Shown: piece after piece, positions 1-19,121 of the stretch
Layout of the letters: each line of letters starts with the position of its first letter
Position numbering within the stretch: the first letter of the stretch is position 1
From: Candidatus Gastranaerophilales bacterium
Lineage (GTDB): Bacteria > Cyanobacteriota > Vampirovibrionia > Gastranaerophilales > Gastranaerophilaceae
Direction: 5' to 3'
Length of the DNA: 41,772 nt
Assembly: GCA_947624265.1 (NCBI GenBank)
Contig: CANQJQ010000003.1
Location: forward strand, 1-41,772
The notes under the pieces: model-generated
What the model was told of the DNA's origin: nothing
The model's input: the letters and a program-made list of their open reading frames with translations, nothing else
The model's database searches: none
Made by a program: the position numbers and the translations under genes

Positions 1-267
1 TTTATTGCAGCCCCGGGAGGCTTCGGCACCTTTGAAGAAATTTTTGAAATATTAGTGGCAAAACAATTGGGCTACCACAATAAACCCGTTATTTTCTTTA
101 ATTTTGACAACTATTACTCTGATATGTTAAAGATGTTTGAAACCGTTTACGAGAATAAATTTGCAAAACCAGAAGCCCGCGATTTGTACTTTATAGCAAA
201 CTCAATAGCTGAAATGTTTGATTATATTAAAACATACACACCTAAAGAGTTTGTTTTAAAGTGGTAA
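1..267 (+). CDS. LOG family protein (TIGR00730-type Rossmann fold), C-terminal part, 5' truncated by window
   Basis: Frame 1 reads FIAAPGGFGTFEEIFEILVAKQLGYHNKPVIFFN...; PGGFGTFEE is the LOG-family signature; stop at 265-267. Confidence 0.85.
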   Translation, partial: FIAAPGGFGTFEEIFEILVAKQLGYHNKPVIFFNFDNYYSDMLKMFETVYENKFAKPEARDLYFIANSIAEMFDYIKTYTPKEFVLKW

Positions 268-271
268 AAAG

Positions 272-655
272 TTATTTAACAACAGAAATTGTATCAACTT
301 CTACAGACAAAGAATGAAAGTCTTTATCAACTTCGCCTGTGATTTTAACGGTATCATTAGCACTGACGGTTGTTCCCGCCCAAACTTTATCATCGATTTC
401 CACAGTTATAGTACCTGTTGAGTCCTTAAAAAGATATTTTTCTTTTCCGATTTTTGAAACAATATTTCCTTGTAAAGAGATATAAGAATTATCGGCAAAA
501 TTTTTAACGGAAGCAACTGTTGCTGCTTTGTCTTGAGAAGCACCCGTGAATCCTCCGACGGCATTATTATACTGAGTATTGTCTGCATAACCCGCAAAAA
601 CGGTTGATGCGGTCATAACAAAGATAATTGAAGTCAATGCTAATAATTTTTTCAT
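272..655 (-). CDS. Secreted OB-fold (BOF/YgiW-YdeI type) stress-tolerance family protein
   Basis: Signal peptide MKKLLALTSIIFVMTASTVFA; body ISLQGNIVSKIGKEKYLFKDSTGTITVEIDDKVW...VKITGEVDKD is typical of YgiW/YdeI. Confidence 0.8.
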   Translation of the reverse strand: MKKLLALTSIIFVMTASTVFAGYADNTQYNNAVGGFTGASQDKAATVASVKNFADNSYISLQGNIVSKIGKEKYLFKDSTGTITVEIDDKVWAGTTVSANDTVKITGEVDKDFHSLSVEVDTISVVK

Positions 656-740
656 ATATTTCTCCTTTGTTAATAAAATAACTAATTATGATAATAAGTA
701 CTATACCATATTTTATAGCTGATTGTGCATATTTTATGAT

Positions 741-797
741 TTGTCTTGGGGGGGGGTAAAAGTGGTATAATTATTTTGTTTACAAATTTGGGTGTTT
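741..797 (+). promoter_or_regulatory. Poly-G promoter cassette copy 1: TTGTCT (741-746), G9 (748-756), TGG-TATAAT (763-771)
   Basis: Extended -10 TGGTATAAT with a G9 tract in the spacer; near-identical copy at 3540-3600; ATG of the downstream ORF at 800. Confidence 0.6.
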
Positions 798-799
798 TT

Positions 800-1843
800 A
801 TGTGTAATGATAAAGAGAATATAGAAAAGGGAAAAAACAACAAACAAAGTTGGTGGAAAAATGTTGGGTTAAAAAAAATCCTGCAAATCTTATTTATTGG
901 AATTATTGTAGTGTTTATTATTATTTTTTCTATACATCAAATTATTGATTTAAAAATAAGTAGTTATATTAAAAATAATGAAATTAATAATGCATATAAA
1001 TTACTCAATATTTCTTATAATATAAATCTTCCTATTTTCAAAAAAAATCAATTTTCCCTTGAAAAATTATATAAAATGGCTTGTATTGACTTTAGCATAG
1101 GTAATACCGAACAAAGTTTAGAAAAATTTTATTATATTGAAAAAAATTTAAAGAATAAAAAAACTGAAATTTACCTATCTACATTAGCAAATATTATTTC
1201 TATAATTTATTTAAATGGTGATTATGAAAATGCCAAAAAATATATAAAATTTTTGATAATAAACGGTAATGAAAATATTGAAAGATTATCATTTCTGGTA
1301 AAATTTAGTTACTTGTTACAAAATAATGAAGATACATTAAAATATTATAAAAAATTTATTGAGTTAAATCCTAATAATAAAAATGACAAATTTATATATA
1401 TACTTAATCTGATTGAAATATATTCTATGTTTAATCAAGATAAAGTAATAAATAAAAAAGATATAGATTATATTCTTCACTTTATGAATAATGAACAAAC
1501 AGATTATACAAAATATCTTACAAGTAATGCTCTTGCTGAATATTATTTAAAGCAAAAAAATAAAGAAAAATCGTTATTTTATACCTTAGAATTAGAAAAG
1601 TTCATAGAAGAATACAACCCATCATCATTAAGATACTATTTTTATGTGTCATACCTAATGTATAGAAATAATGAAAGAGATAAAGCATTGCAAGTATTAG
1701 AAAAACTTAAAAATGATAAGCAATTTACGGCGCAAAACAATAAATATAAAATTTGTCTGGATTCTTATACTGATTTATATATGAAAAATATAAATATAAA
1801 TAATGTTTTTTGTAGAAATTTACTGGAAATTAGGGGAATATAA
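800..1843 (+). CDS. Membrane-anchored, TPR-like hypothetical protein
   Basis: ORF 746..1843; ATG at 800 (MCNDKENIEKG) preferred because the upstream part overlaps the -10 element; one TM segment (ILQILFIGIIVVFIIIFSI) then helical repeat-like sequence. Confidence 0.6.
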   Translation: MCNDKENIEKGKNNKQSWWKNVGLKKILQILFIGIIVVFIIIFSIHQIIDLKISSYIKNNEINNAYKLLNISYNINLPIFKKNQFSLEKLYKMACIDFSIGNTEQSLEKFYYIEKNLKNKKTEIYLSTLANIISIIYLNGDYENAKKYIKFLIINGNENIERLSFLVKFSYLLQNNEDTLKYYKKFIELNPNNKNDKFIYILNLIEIYSMFNQDKVINKKDIDYILHFMNNEQTDYTKYLTSNALAEYYLKQKNKEKSLFYTLELEKFIEEYNPSSLRYYFYVSYLMYRNNERDKALQVLEKLKNDKQFTAQNNKYKICLDSYTDLYMKNININNVFCRNLLEIRGI

Positions 1844-1968
1844 AACGGAATATGTAAAATCACAAACTCGTATTGAAGCAAGCAGGTTGGTTCTTAACCC
1901 AACAAACGAATAAAACAATATATAAAATATTTTAAATTTTCCAAAAAATTTTGATACATTTTATTATT

Positions 1969-2025
1969 AGATAATATATTATCTATATATTGACTTTTTG
2001 CATAAAATAGGTTAATATATTATCT
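1969..2025 (+). promoter_or_regulatory. hipBA promoter/operator: palindrome AGATAATATATTATCT (1969-1984), TTGACT (1990-1995), 17-nt spacer, TAATAT (2013-2018), second operator-like AATATATTATCT (2014-2025)
   Basis: Read directly from sequence; perfect 16-bp palindrome and a second copy of AATATATTATCTAT abutting the hipB ATG. Confidence 0.6.
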
Positions 2026-2304
2026 ATGAATAATCTGTTTATAAATCAAAAAACGCCCAATGAAATTGCGAAAAATTTAGCGGATAAAATTAAAAAAAAC
2101 CGTAAAAAATTAAAGATTTCGCAGGAAATTTTAGCGCAAAAATCAGGTGTTAGTTTAGGCAGCATTAAAAGATTTGAAACAAAATATGAAATTTCTCTGC
2201 AATCGCTTATAAAAATTACAATTGCACTTAATTTAGATAATGACATTGAAAATTTATTTACACAAAAAACTTACACTTCAATCGATGAGGTAATTAATGA
2301 ATAA
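2026..2304 (+). CDS. HipB-like HTH (XRE) antitoxin/repressor
   Basis: KISQEILAQKSGVSLGSIKRFETKYEISLQSLIKITIALNL is a canonical XRE HTH; overlaps the downstream hipA-like ORF. Confidence 0.8.
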   Translation: MNNLFINQKTPNEIAKNLADKIKKNRKKLKISQEILAQKSGVSLGSIKRFETKYEISLQSLIKITIALNLDNDIENLFTQKTYTSIDEVINE

Positions 2305-3403
2305 TTATAAATACCTTAAAGTTTTTTATAATGATAAATTAGTCGGAACCTTAGCTAAAACGCCCGACAGGCTCGTTGCTTTTGAATATGACAGCGAATG
2401 GATTAATTCAGGTTTTAGCATTTCACCGTTCTCACTCCCGCTTGAAAAAAAAGTATATTTGCCGAAATTTGAACCGTTTGACGGTTTATTTGGGGTGTTT
2501 AATGACAGTCTGCCTGACGGTTGGGGAAGATTACTTGTTGACAGATTTTTGCTTAAAAACAAAATTAACCCAAGCGAAATTGATAATTTGAATCGTCTTG
2601 CGGTTGTTCAAGAAAGCGGTATGGGAGCTTTAACATATAAACCCGAGCACAGATTTGAAACTTCAAAAGAAGAATCCGATTATGATAAACTTGCTAATGA
2701 ATGTTCAAAAATATTAGAGTCGCAAAATTCGGATAATTTAGATGAATTGTTTAAACTTGGAGGCTCATCAGGCGGTGCAAGACCGAAAATTCTTACTAAA
2801 ATAAATAATGAAGATTGGATAATCAAATTTCCGTCTTCACAAGATTCTAAAAATATAGGAGAACAAGAATACAAATATTCGCTTTTGGCAAAAGCTTGCG
2901 GAATAAAAATGAGCGAAACCCAATTATTTCCGTCTAAAATATGTTCGGGATATTTTGGGATAAAGCGTTTTGATAGAGAAAACGGCAGAAAAATTCATAT
3001 GGTATCAGTCAGCGCCTTATTAGAAACAAGTCATCGCCTGCCCAATCTTGATTATAATATTTTGATGAAGCTGACTTTAGAATTAACCAAAAATTATCAA
3101 GATATTGAACAATTATACAGGCTTATGTGTTTTAATGTTTTTGCCCATAATAGAGATGACCACTCTAAGAATTTCTCGTTTTTATATGATGAAAATAAAA
3201 AAGAATGGCACTTGTCGCCTGCGTATGATTTGACTTACAGCTCGTCTTTCAACGGAGAACACGCAACAACAATCAACGGCGAAGGTAAAAATCCGAGTTT
3301 GGAAAATATTTTAGCAGTTGCAAAAAATATTGGAATAAAAGAAAAATCGGCTCGCGAAATCGCTCTTGAGATTAAAGAAAAATGCTTATCATTAGTTGAT
3401 TAA
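2297..3403 (+). CDS. hipA: HipA-like serine/threonine kinase toxin
   Basis: GGSSGGARPKI, KRFDRENGRKIHMVS, FNVFAHNRDDHSKNFSF, LSPAYDLT are conserved HipA motifs. Confidence 0.88.
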   Translation: MNNYKYLKVFYNDKLVGTLAKTPDRLVAFEYDSEWINSGFSISPFSLPLEKKVYLPKFEPFDGLFGVFNDSLPDGWGRLLVDRFLLKNKINPSEIDNLNRLAVVQESGMGALTYKPEHRFETSKEESDYDKLANECSKILESQNSDNLDELFKLGGSSGGARPKILTKINNEDWIIKFPSSQDSKNIGEQEYKYSLLAKACGIKMSETQLFPSKICSGYFGIKRFDRENGRKIHMVSVSALLETSHRLPNLDYNILMKLTLELTKNYQDIEQLYRLMCFNVFAHNRDDHSKNFSFLYDENKKEWHLSPAYDLTYSSSFNGEHATTINGEGKNPSLENILAVAKNIGIKEKSAREIALEIKEKCLSLVD

Positions 3404-3539
3404 TATTTACCGTAATTTGAGTTAATTACAAACTTGTATTAGAAGGCAAATTTATAGATACCATATTTTATGTTTCTGTAATTATGTAAAAACAAGCAGT
3501 TTGAATTTACTTAGTTTTCCCATTCGAAAAACTTTAAAT

Positions 3540-3600
3540 TTGCCTTGGGGGGGGGGTAAAAGTGGTATAATTACTATGTTTACAAGCTTAGGTGTTTATT
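3540..3600 (+). promoter_or_regulatory. Poly-G promoter cassette copy 2: TTGCCT (3540-3545), G10 (3547-3556), TGG-TATAAT (3563-3571)
   Basis: Same arrangement and near-identical sequence as 741-797; no recognisable gene directly downstream on this strand. Confidence 0.55.
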
Positions 3601-3644
3601 AGTAAAATGTTTGTTTATGTAGAACAGATATTTTGCTCTCATTA

Positions 3645-3971
3645 TTAATTTTTGTTTTCAATATCTGTTGCTTCGAGTTTAAAAATAACGGGGCGAAGTC
3701 CGTCATTACAAGAACAAATGGCAACCCCGGGTGTTTTTATCCAATCATTAAAATAAAAAGTTGTTTTATCAGCCCCGTGAGCAAGCGCAAAAACATATTG
3801 ATAAATTGCCTTCCAAGCTTCATCACAAAAACTTTCAGGTTTAGCATAATCCGCCAAATAAGTTTGCCCTGCTTTATGAAAAGGACAGGTTGATAAGCCT
3901 TCAACTCCGTATTCTTTAGCTAAATCCTCTTGAAACGTAGTTTTTAACACCGTAATTTTAACTTTTTGCAT
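3645..3971 (-). CDS. TIGR04076-like small conserved protein
   Basis: MQKVKITVLKTTFQEDLAKEYGVEGLSTCPFHKAGQTYLAD... GVAICSCNDGLRPVIFKLEA. Confidence 0.65.
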   Translation of the reverse strand: MQKVKITVLKTTFQEDLAKEYGVEGLSTCPFHKAGQTYLADYAKPESFCDEAWKAIYQYVFALAHGADKTTFYFNDWIKTPGVAICSCNDGLRPVIFKLEATDIENKN

Positions 3972-4056
3972 AAATTTAGCCTCTCTCTTGAAAACACTAC
4001 TTTTTTAATTTAGCATAAAATAAAAGATTGAAAAATAAATTAAAAGGAGTTTAATT

Positions 4057-4563
4057 ATGTCATTTTTAGAGTTAGCACGTGAAAGATATTCTTGCAGAAA
4101 ATTCAGTAATAAAGAAGTAGAACAGGATAAAATTGATAAAATACTTGAAGCGGGCAGAGTTGCTCCGACTGCTGTTAACTATCAATCTCAAAGAGTTCTC
4201 GTTTTACAAAGTAAAGAAAGTCTTGAAAAATTAAAAACGGTTACTCAATATCATTTTGATGCTCCGCTTGCTTTTTTAATTTGCTATAATAACACCGTAA
4301 GCTGGAAAAATCCTTTTAATAATTTTGATGAAGGAGTAGTAGACGCAAGTATTGTTACTACGCATATGATGTTAGAAATTGCAGATTTAGGCTTGGGGTC
4401 TACTTGGGTCGGATATTTTGATTCAAAAATTGCTCAAAAAACATTTAATTTAGCGGATAATATTATTCCAGTTGCAATACTTCCCGCAGGCTATCCTGAT
4501 AAAGAACCCTCTCATATGCACAATACCAGAAATGAATTATCCAAAACGGTTCAATATCTATAA
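4057..4563 (+). CDS. Nitroreductase family protein
   Basis: RYSCRKFSNKEVEQDKIDKILEAGRVAPTAVNYQSQRVLV...; RBS aaaggag upstream. Confidence 0.9.
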   Translation: MSFLELARERYSCRKFSNKEVEQDKIDKILEAGRVAPTAVNYQSQRVLVLQSKESLEKLKTVTQYHFDAPLAFLICYNNTVSWKNPFNNFDEGVVDASIVTTHMMLEIADLGLGSTWVGYFDSKIAQKTFNLADNIIPVAILPAGYPDKEPSHMHNTRNELSKTVQYL

Positions 4564-4602
4564 TTTTTTAATAAACCGGCATAATATTCAAGGAGCAATA
4601 AA

Positions 4603-5250
4603 ATGAGAAATATAATTATAGTAAACGGAAGTCCGAGAAAAAATTGTAACACGGCAAAAATGTGTGAAAGCTTTGCCAATGGCGTTAAAGAAGCGGGCGA
4701 AGAAGCTGAAATAATAAACCTTTATGACATCGATTTTAAAGGATGCAGAAGCTGTTTTGCGTGCAAGTTAAAAGAAGGTAAAAACTTTGGCAGATGCTCA
4801 TACCCTGACGGTTTAACGCCGATACTGGATAAAATATCCGCTGCAGACGGTCTTGTAGTGGCAAGTCCTATATATTGCTCAGATGTAACGGGGGTTACAA
4901 GATGTTTTATAGAACGTCTTACCTTCCCATTCTTTGAATACAAAGAAGGTTATCCTTCAATTGCTCCTAAAAAGCTCAAAACAGCAATGATTTATACTAT
5001 GAATGTATCTGAAACCCTTTCAAATCAAATGTATCCTGATATGTTTGATAAAACCGAGTTTATGATAACAACGGTATTTGAAAAACCCGTTAGGATTTTT
5101 GCCTATGATACATATCAATTCACGGATTACGATAAATACGTAGTTGAGACTTTTGACAAAAATGAAAAATTAAAACAAAAAGAACAACAATTCCCAAAAG
5201 ACCTTCAAAGAGCATTTGAAGCAGGAAAAAATATGCTCGAAAACATCTAA
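4603..5250 (+). CDS. Flavodoxin-fold NADPH-dependent FMN reductase family protein
   Basis: NGSPRKNCNTAKMCESFANGV, CRSCFACK, ASPIYCSDVTG. Confidence 0.9.
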   Translation: MRNIIIVNGSPRKNCNTAKMCESFANGVKEAGEEAEIINLYDIDFKGCRSCFACKLKEGKNFGRCSYPDGLTPILDKISAADGLVVASPIYCSDVTGVTRCFIERLTFPFFEYKEGYPSIAPKKLKTAMIYTMNVSETLSNQMYPDMFDKTEFMITTVFEKPVRIFAYDTYQFTDYDKYVVETFDKNEKLKQKEQQFPKDLQRAFEAGKNMLENI

Positions 5251-15410: not shown

Positions 15411-16205
15411 TTAATTTTCATCATTTTCGGGTTTTACGACTGTTGTTATACCCAATAAAGCCTTAAAAAAGTCTTTTATTGAAGAACCTTTATCTTGTCC
15501 TGCTTTTACTGTACCAAAGGCTCCGCCTTCAGTCGCTCTATCTAAAAGTTCTTTAAAATTTTGTCCTGCTTTTACTGTACCAAAAGCTCCACCTTCAAGC
15601 GCTCTATCTACCAGTTCTTTAAAATTTTGTCCTGCTTCTACTGTACCAAAGGCTCCACCTTCAAGCGCTCTATCTACAAGTTCTTTAAAATTTTGTCCTG
15701 CTTCTACCGTGCCAAAGGCTCCGCCTTCAATCGCTCTATCTACAAGTTCTTTAAAATTTTGTCCTGCTTCTACCGTGCCAAAGGCTCCGCCTTCAAGCGC
15801 TCTATCTACAAGTTCTTTAAAATTTTGTCCTGCTTCTACTGTACTAAAGGCTCCGCCTTCAGTCGCTCTATCTAAAAGTTCTTTAAAATTTTGTCCTGCT
15901 TTTACTGTGCCAAAGGCTCCGCCTTCAAGCGCTCTATCTACGGCGTCCTCTAAAGCTGATCCTTCTGCACCTGCTTTTACTACTGCATTAGCTCCACCTA
16001 AAATTGCTCCTTTTACCGCATCCTCAAAAGCTGATCCTTCTGCACCTGCTTTTACTACACCAAGGGCGCCTGTAACTGCTCCTTCTACGGCATCCTCAAA
16101 AATAGGTTTTTCAGTTCCTTCATCCTCTTTGGGTGTATCAGTCTCTTGATTTTCTTGAGGTTTAACAACAGCTGATAATCCTATTAATTTTTCTACAAAA
16201 CTCAT
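15411..16205 (-). CDS. Tandem-repeat protein (22-aa units AGQNFKELVDRALEGGAFGTVE)
   Basis: 264-aa ORF with seven near-identical 22-aa repeats, two divergent N-terminal repeats, and similar terminal segments. Confidence 0.8.
   Translation of the reverse strand: MSFVEKLIGLSAVVKPQENQETDTPKEDEGTEKPIFEDAVEGAVTGALGVVKAGAEGSAFEDAVKGAILGGANAVVKAGAEGSALEDAVDRALEGGAFGTVKAGQNFKELLDRATEGGAFSTVEAGQNFKELVDRALEGGAFGTVEAGQNFKELVDRAIEGGAFGTVEAGQNFKELVDRALEGGAFGTVEAGQNFKELVDRALEGGAFGTVKAGQNFKELLDRATEGGAFGTVKAGQDKGSSIKDFFKALLGITTVVKPENDEN
15495..15956. repeat. Seven tandem 66-bp repeats inside the coding sequence
   Basis: ttgtcctgc recurs at 15495, 15561, 15627, 15693, 15759, 15825 and 15891 (exact 66-bp spacing). 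Confidence 0.95.
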
Positions 16206-17542: not shown

Positions 17543-18220
17543 TTATTTTTTTTCAAATACATAATAATCAGATAATAAGTCATTAAATTTTTTAGATATT
17601 TCTTCTATATTTTCTTTCTTCCAACCTAAAGAAGTAAGCTTTGATATAATAATATCTTTATCCTCAAGATTTAAGTTGATAAAATATATTTTATTTTTTT
17701 CTTTTAAAAATTGAGAAATGTCCGCATCATCTATAATTATTTTATTATCTTTGTTTACATATTTTACTGAAAAATTATTATTTCTTTTAATTTTATTTAC
17801 ATCAACTACTATCTTGTTATAATGATTGCAATATGTACAAGGATTTTCACGCATTATTATAACTGTATTATCGTCTAACTCATCTAATTGTTCCATTCTG
17901 TTTAAAGTATCTATAGTTCTGGAATTATCAGTAATTAGAGGAAATAATACATTAAGTTTTTTAATATATAGAGAAAATAAAATTGCAAGTATAAGAATTA
18001 TTGTAAAATTTAAAATACCAATAAACCGATTTTTTCCGCAATAATCAAATATTTTACAAGTAATTATAATTATTGACGGAGTAAGAAATAATATTACACG
18101 ATTACAAAAAGGATAAAATCCTAAATATGATAATATTAAGAAAAAATATACGGGTATAATTAAAAATAAACCGTTAAAGTTTAGTGATAACTTACCCCCC
18201 CCCCAGCTCATTTTTCTCAA
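17543..18220 (-). CDS. C-terminal fragment of membrane glycosyltransferase-like protein (out of frame with 18192..19121)
   Basis: Frame continues from SWGGGKLSLNFNGLFLIIPVYFFLILSYLG; joins the upstream ORF if the G10 tract loses 1 nt. Confidence 0.7.
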   Translation of the reverse strand: MRKMSWGGGKLSLNFNGLFLIIPVYFFLILSYLGFYPFCNRVILFLTPSIIIITCKIFDYCGKNRFIGILNFTIILILAILFSLYIKKLNVLFPLITDNSRTIDTLNRMEQLDELDDNTVIIMRENPCTYCNHYNKIVVDVNKIKRNNNFSVKYVNKDNKIIIDDADISQFLKEKNKIYFINLNLEDKDIIISKLTSLGWKKENIEEISKKFNDLLSDYYVFEKK

Positions 18221-19121
18221 TTTTTATACAAATTAAAACACTTCCTATTAAAAATAATATTAAAATAAATAATAAAACGCCGTGAGGAAGCATAGCAGTA
18301 ATTCGAGAATCAAAAAATTCATGCTGAAAAAATATAAAATGTATAATAGAATTTAAAGCTTTAAAAGAATTCGGCGTAAAATAATATAAGTTTGACATCC
18401 ATTGTTCTTTTAATCCGTCATCAGCCTGCATTTGTATAATATAGCTATAATAGTTAACCAAAATAAAAGTTAATGTAAAAATTTGAAAAATGATTATTTT
18501 TATAATATTCTCCGAATTTTTATAAATGAAGTTTTTTAATAATAATAAAAATGAAAATATTTCAATTATTACAATTGATGTAATTGACGAATATACCATT
18601 ATTAAAGACCCTAAAATACACAAAATCAGTTTTTTAGGATTAATTTTATCTAAACTATTGCCGAGAACTAGGTTTAACATCAAAAGCATACAAAACAAAT
18701 CATAAGAATACGGTTTTATATAGTGCGAAAAATGTATGTAACTATAATTAAAACAATATAAAAAAAGACAAAAAACAATTAGTAATTTGTTTTTAAAAAC
18801 TTTTTCAAGTAATCTAAAAAACAAGAAAAAGGATAAAAATTCTGCAAGCAAAGAAAAAAGTTTATAAACAGTAAAATCTAATCCCCATATTTTATAAATA
18901 AATTTCATTAAGCATCTGTATAAAGGTAAAAAATTGGTTCCTTGTATAAAATTGAAAAAAATATCATGTAAAGGAACAAAAGAACCCCACAAACTGTGAC
19001 ATTCATCTCCAATCATATAGTATCGGTTATTTATAAGAGAAATTATTCGAATTGCAAATCCGATAATAAACAATAAAATTATTGCAAAATAGTATAAATT
19101 AAATTTATTAGTTTTTTCCAT
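18192..19121 (-). CDS. N-terminal part of GT-C-like (PMT/ArnT-like) membrane glycosyltransferase, terminated just after a poly-G tract
   Basis: Multi-TM; MIGDECHSLWGSF near the N-terminus; ends ...KIEKNELGGG-stop immediately after the G10 tract. Confidence 0.7.
   Translation of the reverse strand: MEKTNKFNLYYFAIILLFIIGFAIRIISLINNRYYMIGDECHSLWGSFVPLHDIFFNFIQGTNFLPLYRCLMKFIYKIWGLDFTVYKLFSLLAEFLSFFLFFRLLEKVFKNKLLIVFCLFLYCFNYSYIHFSHYIKPYSYDLFCMLLMLNLVLGNSLDKINPKKLILCILGSLIMVYSSITSIVIIEIFSFLLLLKNFIYKNSENIIKIIIFQIFTLTFILVNYYSYIIQMQADDGLKEQWMSNLYYFTPNSFKALNSIIHFIFFQHEFFDSRITAMLPHGVLLFILILFLIGSVLICIKIEKNELGGG
18195..18204 (-). repeat. G10 homopolymer tract (C10 on + strand) inside a glycosyltransferase gene
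   Basis: acttaCCCCCCCCCCagctc. Confidence 0.9.

Follow-up and report, generated by a model that had tools for sequence, protein, structure and literature searches.

The window analyzed here, a stretch of 41,772 nt from a Candidatus Gastranaerophilales genome (contig CANQJQ010000003.1, GCA_947624265.1), carries near its left end a short promoter-like module between two divergent genes (Table 1). Positions 741–771 read TTGTCT-T-GGGGGGGGG-TAAAAGTGG-TATAAT, followed by 28 nt and an ATG, and the hexamer-to-hexamer spacer is 19 nt. An earlier sequence-only reading of this DNA had described a G9 tract between a −35-like hexamer and an extended −10 at this spacing, and the sequence reads exactly so; the start codon that it put about 29 nt downstream of the −10 lies at 28 nt. 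The −35-like element of the family to which this module belongs is TTGC, in place of which window module 1 has TTGT. A generic sigma-70 scan, which admits spacers of 16–18 only, omits this promoter. No known structured RNA was found in window positions 1–5000.

Table 1 Features of the two module sites in the window
Feature	Position	Strand	Remarks
Divergent BOF (OB-fold) gene	272–655	−	Marks the chromosomal site of module 1
−35-like element TTGTCT	741–746	+	Family consensus TTGCNN; TTGC positions 77–100% identical between modules, neighbors 28–57%
Single T between −35-like element and G tract	747	+
G9 homopolymer, predicted slippage tract in promoter spacer	748–756	+	Uninterrupted in 72/81 family copies, length 7–11
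Spacer remainder TAAAAGTGG	757–765	+
TAAAA-GTGG-TATAAT, spacer remainder and extended −10	757–771	+	Near-invariant columns in 70 aligned modules
Extended −10	TGG 763–765, TATAAT 766–771	+	Window module 1
Start region and 5′ leader	772–799	+	Common to the family; SD-like GGGTG at 790–794
ATG of cargo gene	800–802	+	28 nt after the −10
Cargo gene of module 1	800–1843	+	347-aa membrane-anchored helical-repeat (weakly TPR-like) protein
HTH and HipA pair (hipBA-like)	2026–3403	+	Directly upstream of module 2
Second module	3540–3609	+	TTGCCT 3540–3545, G10 3547–3556, TATAAT 3566–3571, spacer 20; empty or decayed site

The second module, missed in the earlier reading, lies 2.8 kb from the first. A repeat search aligned the 62 nt of module 1 with positions 3548–3609 at 84% identity. 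The leader there has lost its start codon, the start codon region being altered to TTTATTAG, and no convincing ORF was found behind module 2. In related genomes, inspection of the upstream alignment showed modules with other cargo just behind the 3′ end of a hipA in two (G003 and G020), and in a third (G027) a module, again with other cargo, adjoins a BOF promoter region that matches the site of module 1.

In the window, a G7 pattern has 11 overlapping matches, against a mean of 0.94 in shuffled sequences, and none of 100 shuffles reached 11. Runs of G or C in the window are 6 nt or shorter except for one of 9 nt and two of 10 nt, and lengths of 7 and 8 do not occur. In the genome as a whole (a 1.65-Mb MAG in 120 contigs), 34 runs of G8 or longer were counted versus about 6 predicted by a dinucleotide model; for G9 or longer, the model predicts about 1.3.

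A further G10 tract of the window (18195–18204, minus strand) lies in the coding frame of a membrane protein (ORFs 18192–19121 and 17543–18220), in a gene that adjoins a nucleotide-sugar dehydratase/epimerase. The assembled frame stops at 309 aa, and G9 or G12 would give 525–526 aa; judging from these frames, the gene looks like a translational contingency gene that is OFF in the assembly. Among the 34 loci of this genome (G000, L010–L039), most other G8–11 tracts fall within reading frames or at their edges, together resembling a contingency gene set of the Campylobacter type. Elsewhere in the window (15411–16205, minus strand), a CDS made of seven 66-nt repeats gave weak antitoxin-like (PhdYefM) and DUF5678 matches.

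A module family in rabbit-gut Gastranaerophilales

A total of 81 distinct copies of the 60-bp module were gathered from about 15 species of one Gastranaerophilales genus, most of them with a pattern that favors G7 and the −10. This pattern, G7-TAAAAGTGGTATAATTA, was searched with up to 3 mismatches in 58 genomes: 35 of the same genus, including the genome of the window, and 23 others of the order and class. It matched at 3 sites in the window's own genome and in 14 of the 35 same-genus genomes (own included), with up to 11 matches per genome; the 23 other genomes contained none, and a reversed control pattern gave zero matches in all 58. In 84,980 prokaryotic species representatives, an exact scan found 51 stretches, 49 of them in 13 MAGs assigned to Candidatus Gastranaerophilales in the rabbit-gut "Lapin" series. 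Every named relative that has the module originates from rabbit gut. A Cryptobacteroides match (L129) was rejected as chance, as it has 43% GC and neither TTGC nor the leader, and a stretch assigned to Bacilli (L172), with 28% GC and two genuine modules, is probably from a Gastranaerophilales contig that was misbinned. Carriage by phages was also rejected, with no exact matches in the IMG/VR viral contigs.

Within the genus, genomes differ widely in their number of G8+ tracts, from 0–5 in many species to 18–121 in others, as counted in short-read MAGs with one assembly per species. On a MutS tree, species poor in tracts and species with the module are intermingled, and supported branches force at least three changes between tract-poor and tract-rich and at least five for the presence of the module. 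Loss of MutS (a hypermutator state) was considered as the cause of tract richness. It was rejected, as MutS is present in all tract-rich genomes; only G001, with a single tract, gave no MutS match.

Other repeated elements with G tracts were seen in the course of this survey. The genome G032 (L108–L123) has 121 G8+ tracts, many of them held in a repeated element, AAGGAG-ATG-8 codons-C(T/C)AC-G9/10-TARAA, that in some cases stands without any gene. Ten such elements lie just before prepilin-type genes (FTLxEVLITL); these leaders resemble a coding switch, yet all ten are out of frame as assembled. In genus g29, G322 (L264–L287) has about 15 copies of TTGACCCGC-G10..18-TGAC(A/G)TATAAT. The sequence that follows them is conserved and no ORF is within reach; they possibly form an independent poly-G promoter or repeat family. 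In genus g27, G113 and G092 (L265, L266, L270, L274, and L277) share a repeated GAATTTAC-G9/12-CAACCTATAAT element, one copy of which is followed by a prepilin-like ORF.

The layout common to the module family is TTGCNNN-Gn-TAAAARTGGTATAATKA-leader-ATG, with TTGC on the left of the tract and RTGGTATAAT on its right. A homopolymer between the −35- and −10-like elements, arranged as TTGC(T)-Gn-TAAAARTGG-TATAAT, is found in 72 of the 81 copies, the identity of the −35 being weak. These 72 uninterrupted tracts comprise one G7 (at a contig edge), 6 G8, 44 G9, 18 G10, and 3 G11. Across 70 aligned modules, the TAAAARTGGTATAAT columns are near invariant and the leader CTTTGTTTACAARTTTAGGTGTTTTTATG shows good conservation. 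In comparisons of unrelated modules, the three bases left of the tract are 28–44% identical, TTGC 77–100%, and positions further left 24–57%. The bases beside the tract are thus random while TTGC is conserved, which argues that the tract and the hexamer are maintained against background decay. When the −10 and leader were searched alone, with no G required, a tract of at least 7 was still present in 28 of 32 copies. Among the copies that lack one are two orthologous promoters, both in front of an HNH-like gene, whose spacer is fixed at 20 nt.

In most copies, the ATG is found 26–30 nt after the −10 (range 26–36), in a frame that varies relative to the tract. A translational, coding poly-G contingency locus was rejected for this family, as the tract lies upstream of a conserved leader and the frame of the ATG is not fixed to it. 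A comparison of tract length across related genomes, proposed in the sequence-only reading as a check, bore out the expected variation: among 26 pairs of the same gene from different species, 80–99% identical downstream and unrelated upstream, 15 differ in length (G8–G11), with the proviso that these differences are between species and that short-read assembly of G runs may err by one. For example, one gene has G10 in G005 and G8 in G012. When the upstream flank is also shared, two of five pairs differ. The phase-switch reading of that note is well supported in its promoter-spacer position by this comparison, since the 81 copies conserve both flanking elements as well as tract purity, with tract length varying among them.

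Cargo genes and their exchange at the module

The protein behind module 1 had been called membrane TPR-like. Its membrane anchor stands, and the TPR label is sub-threshold (TPR_2, 20.9 bits versus a cut-off of 27); a single-sequence structure model of low confidence (pLDDT 58) is uninformative beyond an all-helical fold. Among 41 genomes of the genus, the full-length protein occurs only in its own, with one remote relative (29% identity) in G021, and its N-terminal 45 aa recur in other cargo of G012 and G034. The putative switch module is thus shared and the cargo private.

Cargo of the family mostly have N-terminal hydrophobic anchors or signal-like segments and are predicted to be membrane or secreted proteins. 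Their domains include Kelch propellers, WG repeats, and TPR, and many match nothing; about half are linked by similarity, many with an N-terminus like MSDDKENIEQEK. Downstream of two module genes (L290 in G012:C18 and L294 in G000:C57), partial repeats of the 5′ coding region of about 100–200 nt each are present, possibly silent copies or small paralogues.

Clustering of the flanks revealed 12 upstream families with two or more members, which combine with about 20 downstream families: one upstream flank usually goes with different genes, and one gene is found behind different flanks. Indeed, pairs that are 86–99% identical downstream have unrelated upstream DNA, as in L054 (G023) and L083 (G003), which are 99% identical downstream. 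Homology between related cassettes begins inside the module and stops near the stop codon. Hairpin-like repeats (AGGTTGGGTTAGCGNAGCGTAACCCAACC) were observed just after the stop codons of cargo genes (for example, window 1883–1913, L045, and L061), near where this homology ends.

In a change-point model, all 23 maximum-likelihood breakpoints fell between −11 and +31 of the right edge of the tract, inside the module; the model allowed −40 to +31 only, and the true position of a few placed at +31 may be further to the right. An average identity profile had pointed to an exact site-specific cassette boundary at the left edge of the tract. This was rejected, as the breakpoints of individual pairs scatter over the module, and so was an integron or other site-specific gene cassette, for which a single crossover point is expected. 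The scatter argues for homologous exchange over a site-specific cut and suggests recombination through the shared module. In our reading, the copies are promoter "expression sites" that each have a slippable spacer of their own and into which surface genes may be swapped. The sequence-only reading, which had the module in place, took it as one switch; it is one of a family of more than 80 and also a junction of gene exchange.

A putative slippable promoter shared between sites

We consider it likely, from the arrangement of these sequences, that the modules hold a transcriptional phase switch of the porA/TP0126 type that would double as homology for cargo exchange. The module itself is probably a slippery on/off or volume switch. 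The G tract would be the variable spacer of a dispersed promoter module, and polymerase slippage in the G run would shift the distance from TTGC to the extended −10 by 1 nt per step. Such a shift could raise or lower transcription of the single gene behind the module, as with porA or TP0126. The modules number more than 80, with as many as about a dozen in one genome, and being nearly identical they would also provide short homology, through which downstream surface-protein genes may be traded between sites and species; each site would then be an independently drifting switch with interchangeable cargo. The module, its conservation, the length variation between species, and the breakpoints inside it are read directly from the sequence. 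Promoter activity, slippage within a population, length-dependent expression, and the homologous recombination route are inferred.

By the 17-nt rule, the ON length would be G7, and the assembled G9 and G10 states would be low. Spacers of 19–20 may themselves be active: the tract-less relative before the HNH-like gene has a fixed spacer of 20, so long spacers may be tolerated thanks to the extended −10. It should be noted that the −35 assignment is weak, as hardly any of 313 other TATAAT promoters in the lineage have TTGAC. In those promoters, TTG is mildly enriched at spacers of 16–17; the modules sit at 18–21.

The modules could instead form a constitutive extended −10 promoter family, in which the G tract has a static role, structural or as a regulator site, and the drift of its length has no effect. 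We find this unlikely. An extended −10 can work without a −35, yet the TTGC beyond the tract is conserved. The length spread is narrow (44 of 72 tracts are G9), but pure G runs of 8–11 are the form most liable to slip. Versions with an interrupted tract or none persist, at spacers of 19–20; interrupted runs, which would suit a static role better, are however the minority, and the same genomes hold many other G tracts, including coding ones in which length sets the frame.

It is quite improbable that the module serves chiefly as a recombination end or the end of a mobile cassette, with only a secondary resemblance to a promoter. The conserved columns are exactly the −10, the extended −10, the leader, and the start codon, and although cassette homology has its limits inside the module and near the stop codon, the breakpoints are spread from −11 to +31 and do not fall on one nucleotide. 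The patchy presence of the module on the tree and modules with no gene behind them, such as window module 2, would fit a cassette end; no integrase or attC-like site was identified in a non-systematic look. An assembly or sequencing artefact (two-color poly-G calls) or chance is extremely improbable and, as to the existence of the tract, already refuted: all data are short-read MAGs, and artefactual-looking G runs do occur next to gaps in other contigs of the genus (L124 and L125 in G019), but such runs are ragged and at contig or read ends, whereas the tract is flanked by conserved sequence at 81 independent sites in some 15 genomes and the reversed pattern gave zero matches.

Relation to known phase-variable systems

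Most known promoter switches of the slipped-strand type come from a few pathogens, and no paper on Gastranaerophilales with phase variation or slipped-strand mispairing was found in one open-access library. If the large family of phase switches proposed here is real, the phenomenon would extend to a new branch, an uncultured and presumably commensal gut lineage. More tentatively, and with doubt slightly the heavier, we propose that gut Gastranaerophilales may possess a multi-site expression system in which one poly-G module acts as a stochastic switch and also supplies the homology by which surface genes are swapped from site to site and from species to species. Each cell would then draw from the product of the number of sites, the on/off states, and the interchangeable cargo, and the shared switch promoter may serve as a docking point for surface-gene exchange among gut species. 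We know of no other case in which a slippable promoter is tied to the exchange of its cargo. Existing rabbit-gut metagenomes, whose reads allow tract variants to be counted, would offer a ready computational test.

In the poly-G coding contingency loci of Campylobacter and Helicobacter, most tracts are inside reading frames. The genome studied here is likewise rich in G8–11 tracts, with surface and glycan genes involved in those loci and probably here as well; unlike those loci, the tract of module 1 is upstream of the ORF, and the same genome also has coding tracts such as 18195–18204.

Closer parallels are found among promoters. Homopolymers between the −35 and −10 of meningococcal porA, fetA, and opc alter transcription (PMC2791445), that of opc overlapping the −35 (PMC7864442). 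As in Neisseria meningitidis, a G (or C) homopolymer lies in the promoter, its length alters the spacing, and the gene behind it encodes a surface protein in Neisseria and may do so here. In Neisseria, however, each is a single locus with its own promoter, whereas here a 60-bp module stands before dozens of unrelated genes, coincides with gene-exchange breakpoints, and has a modal spacer of 19, not 17. In Treponema pallidum, the poly-G tract of TP0126 (an OmpW homologue) also lies between the −35 and −10, and most transcription was obtained experimentally at a 17-nt spacing; length varies in vivo, and several outer-membrane genes, including tprL, are under poly-G control (PMC7864442). The T. 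pallidum optimum is experimental, whereas our module is described from sequence, and neither a shared module nor cargo exchange is reported in the available part of that account (PMC7864442). Of the analogues first named for this locus, porA holds, and Bordetella fim fits less well than porA and TP0126. The class of mechanism is already known; what appears to be new is the lineage, the scale, and the link with gene exchange.
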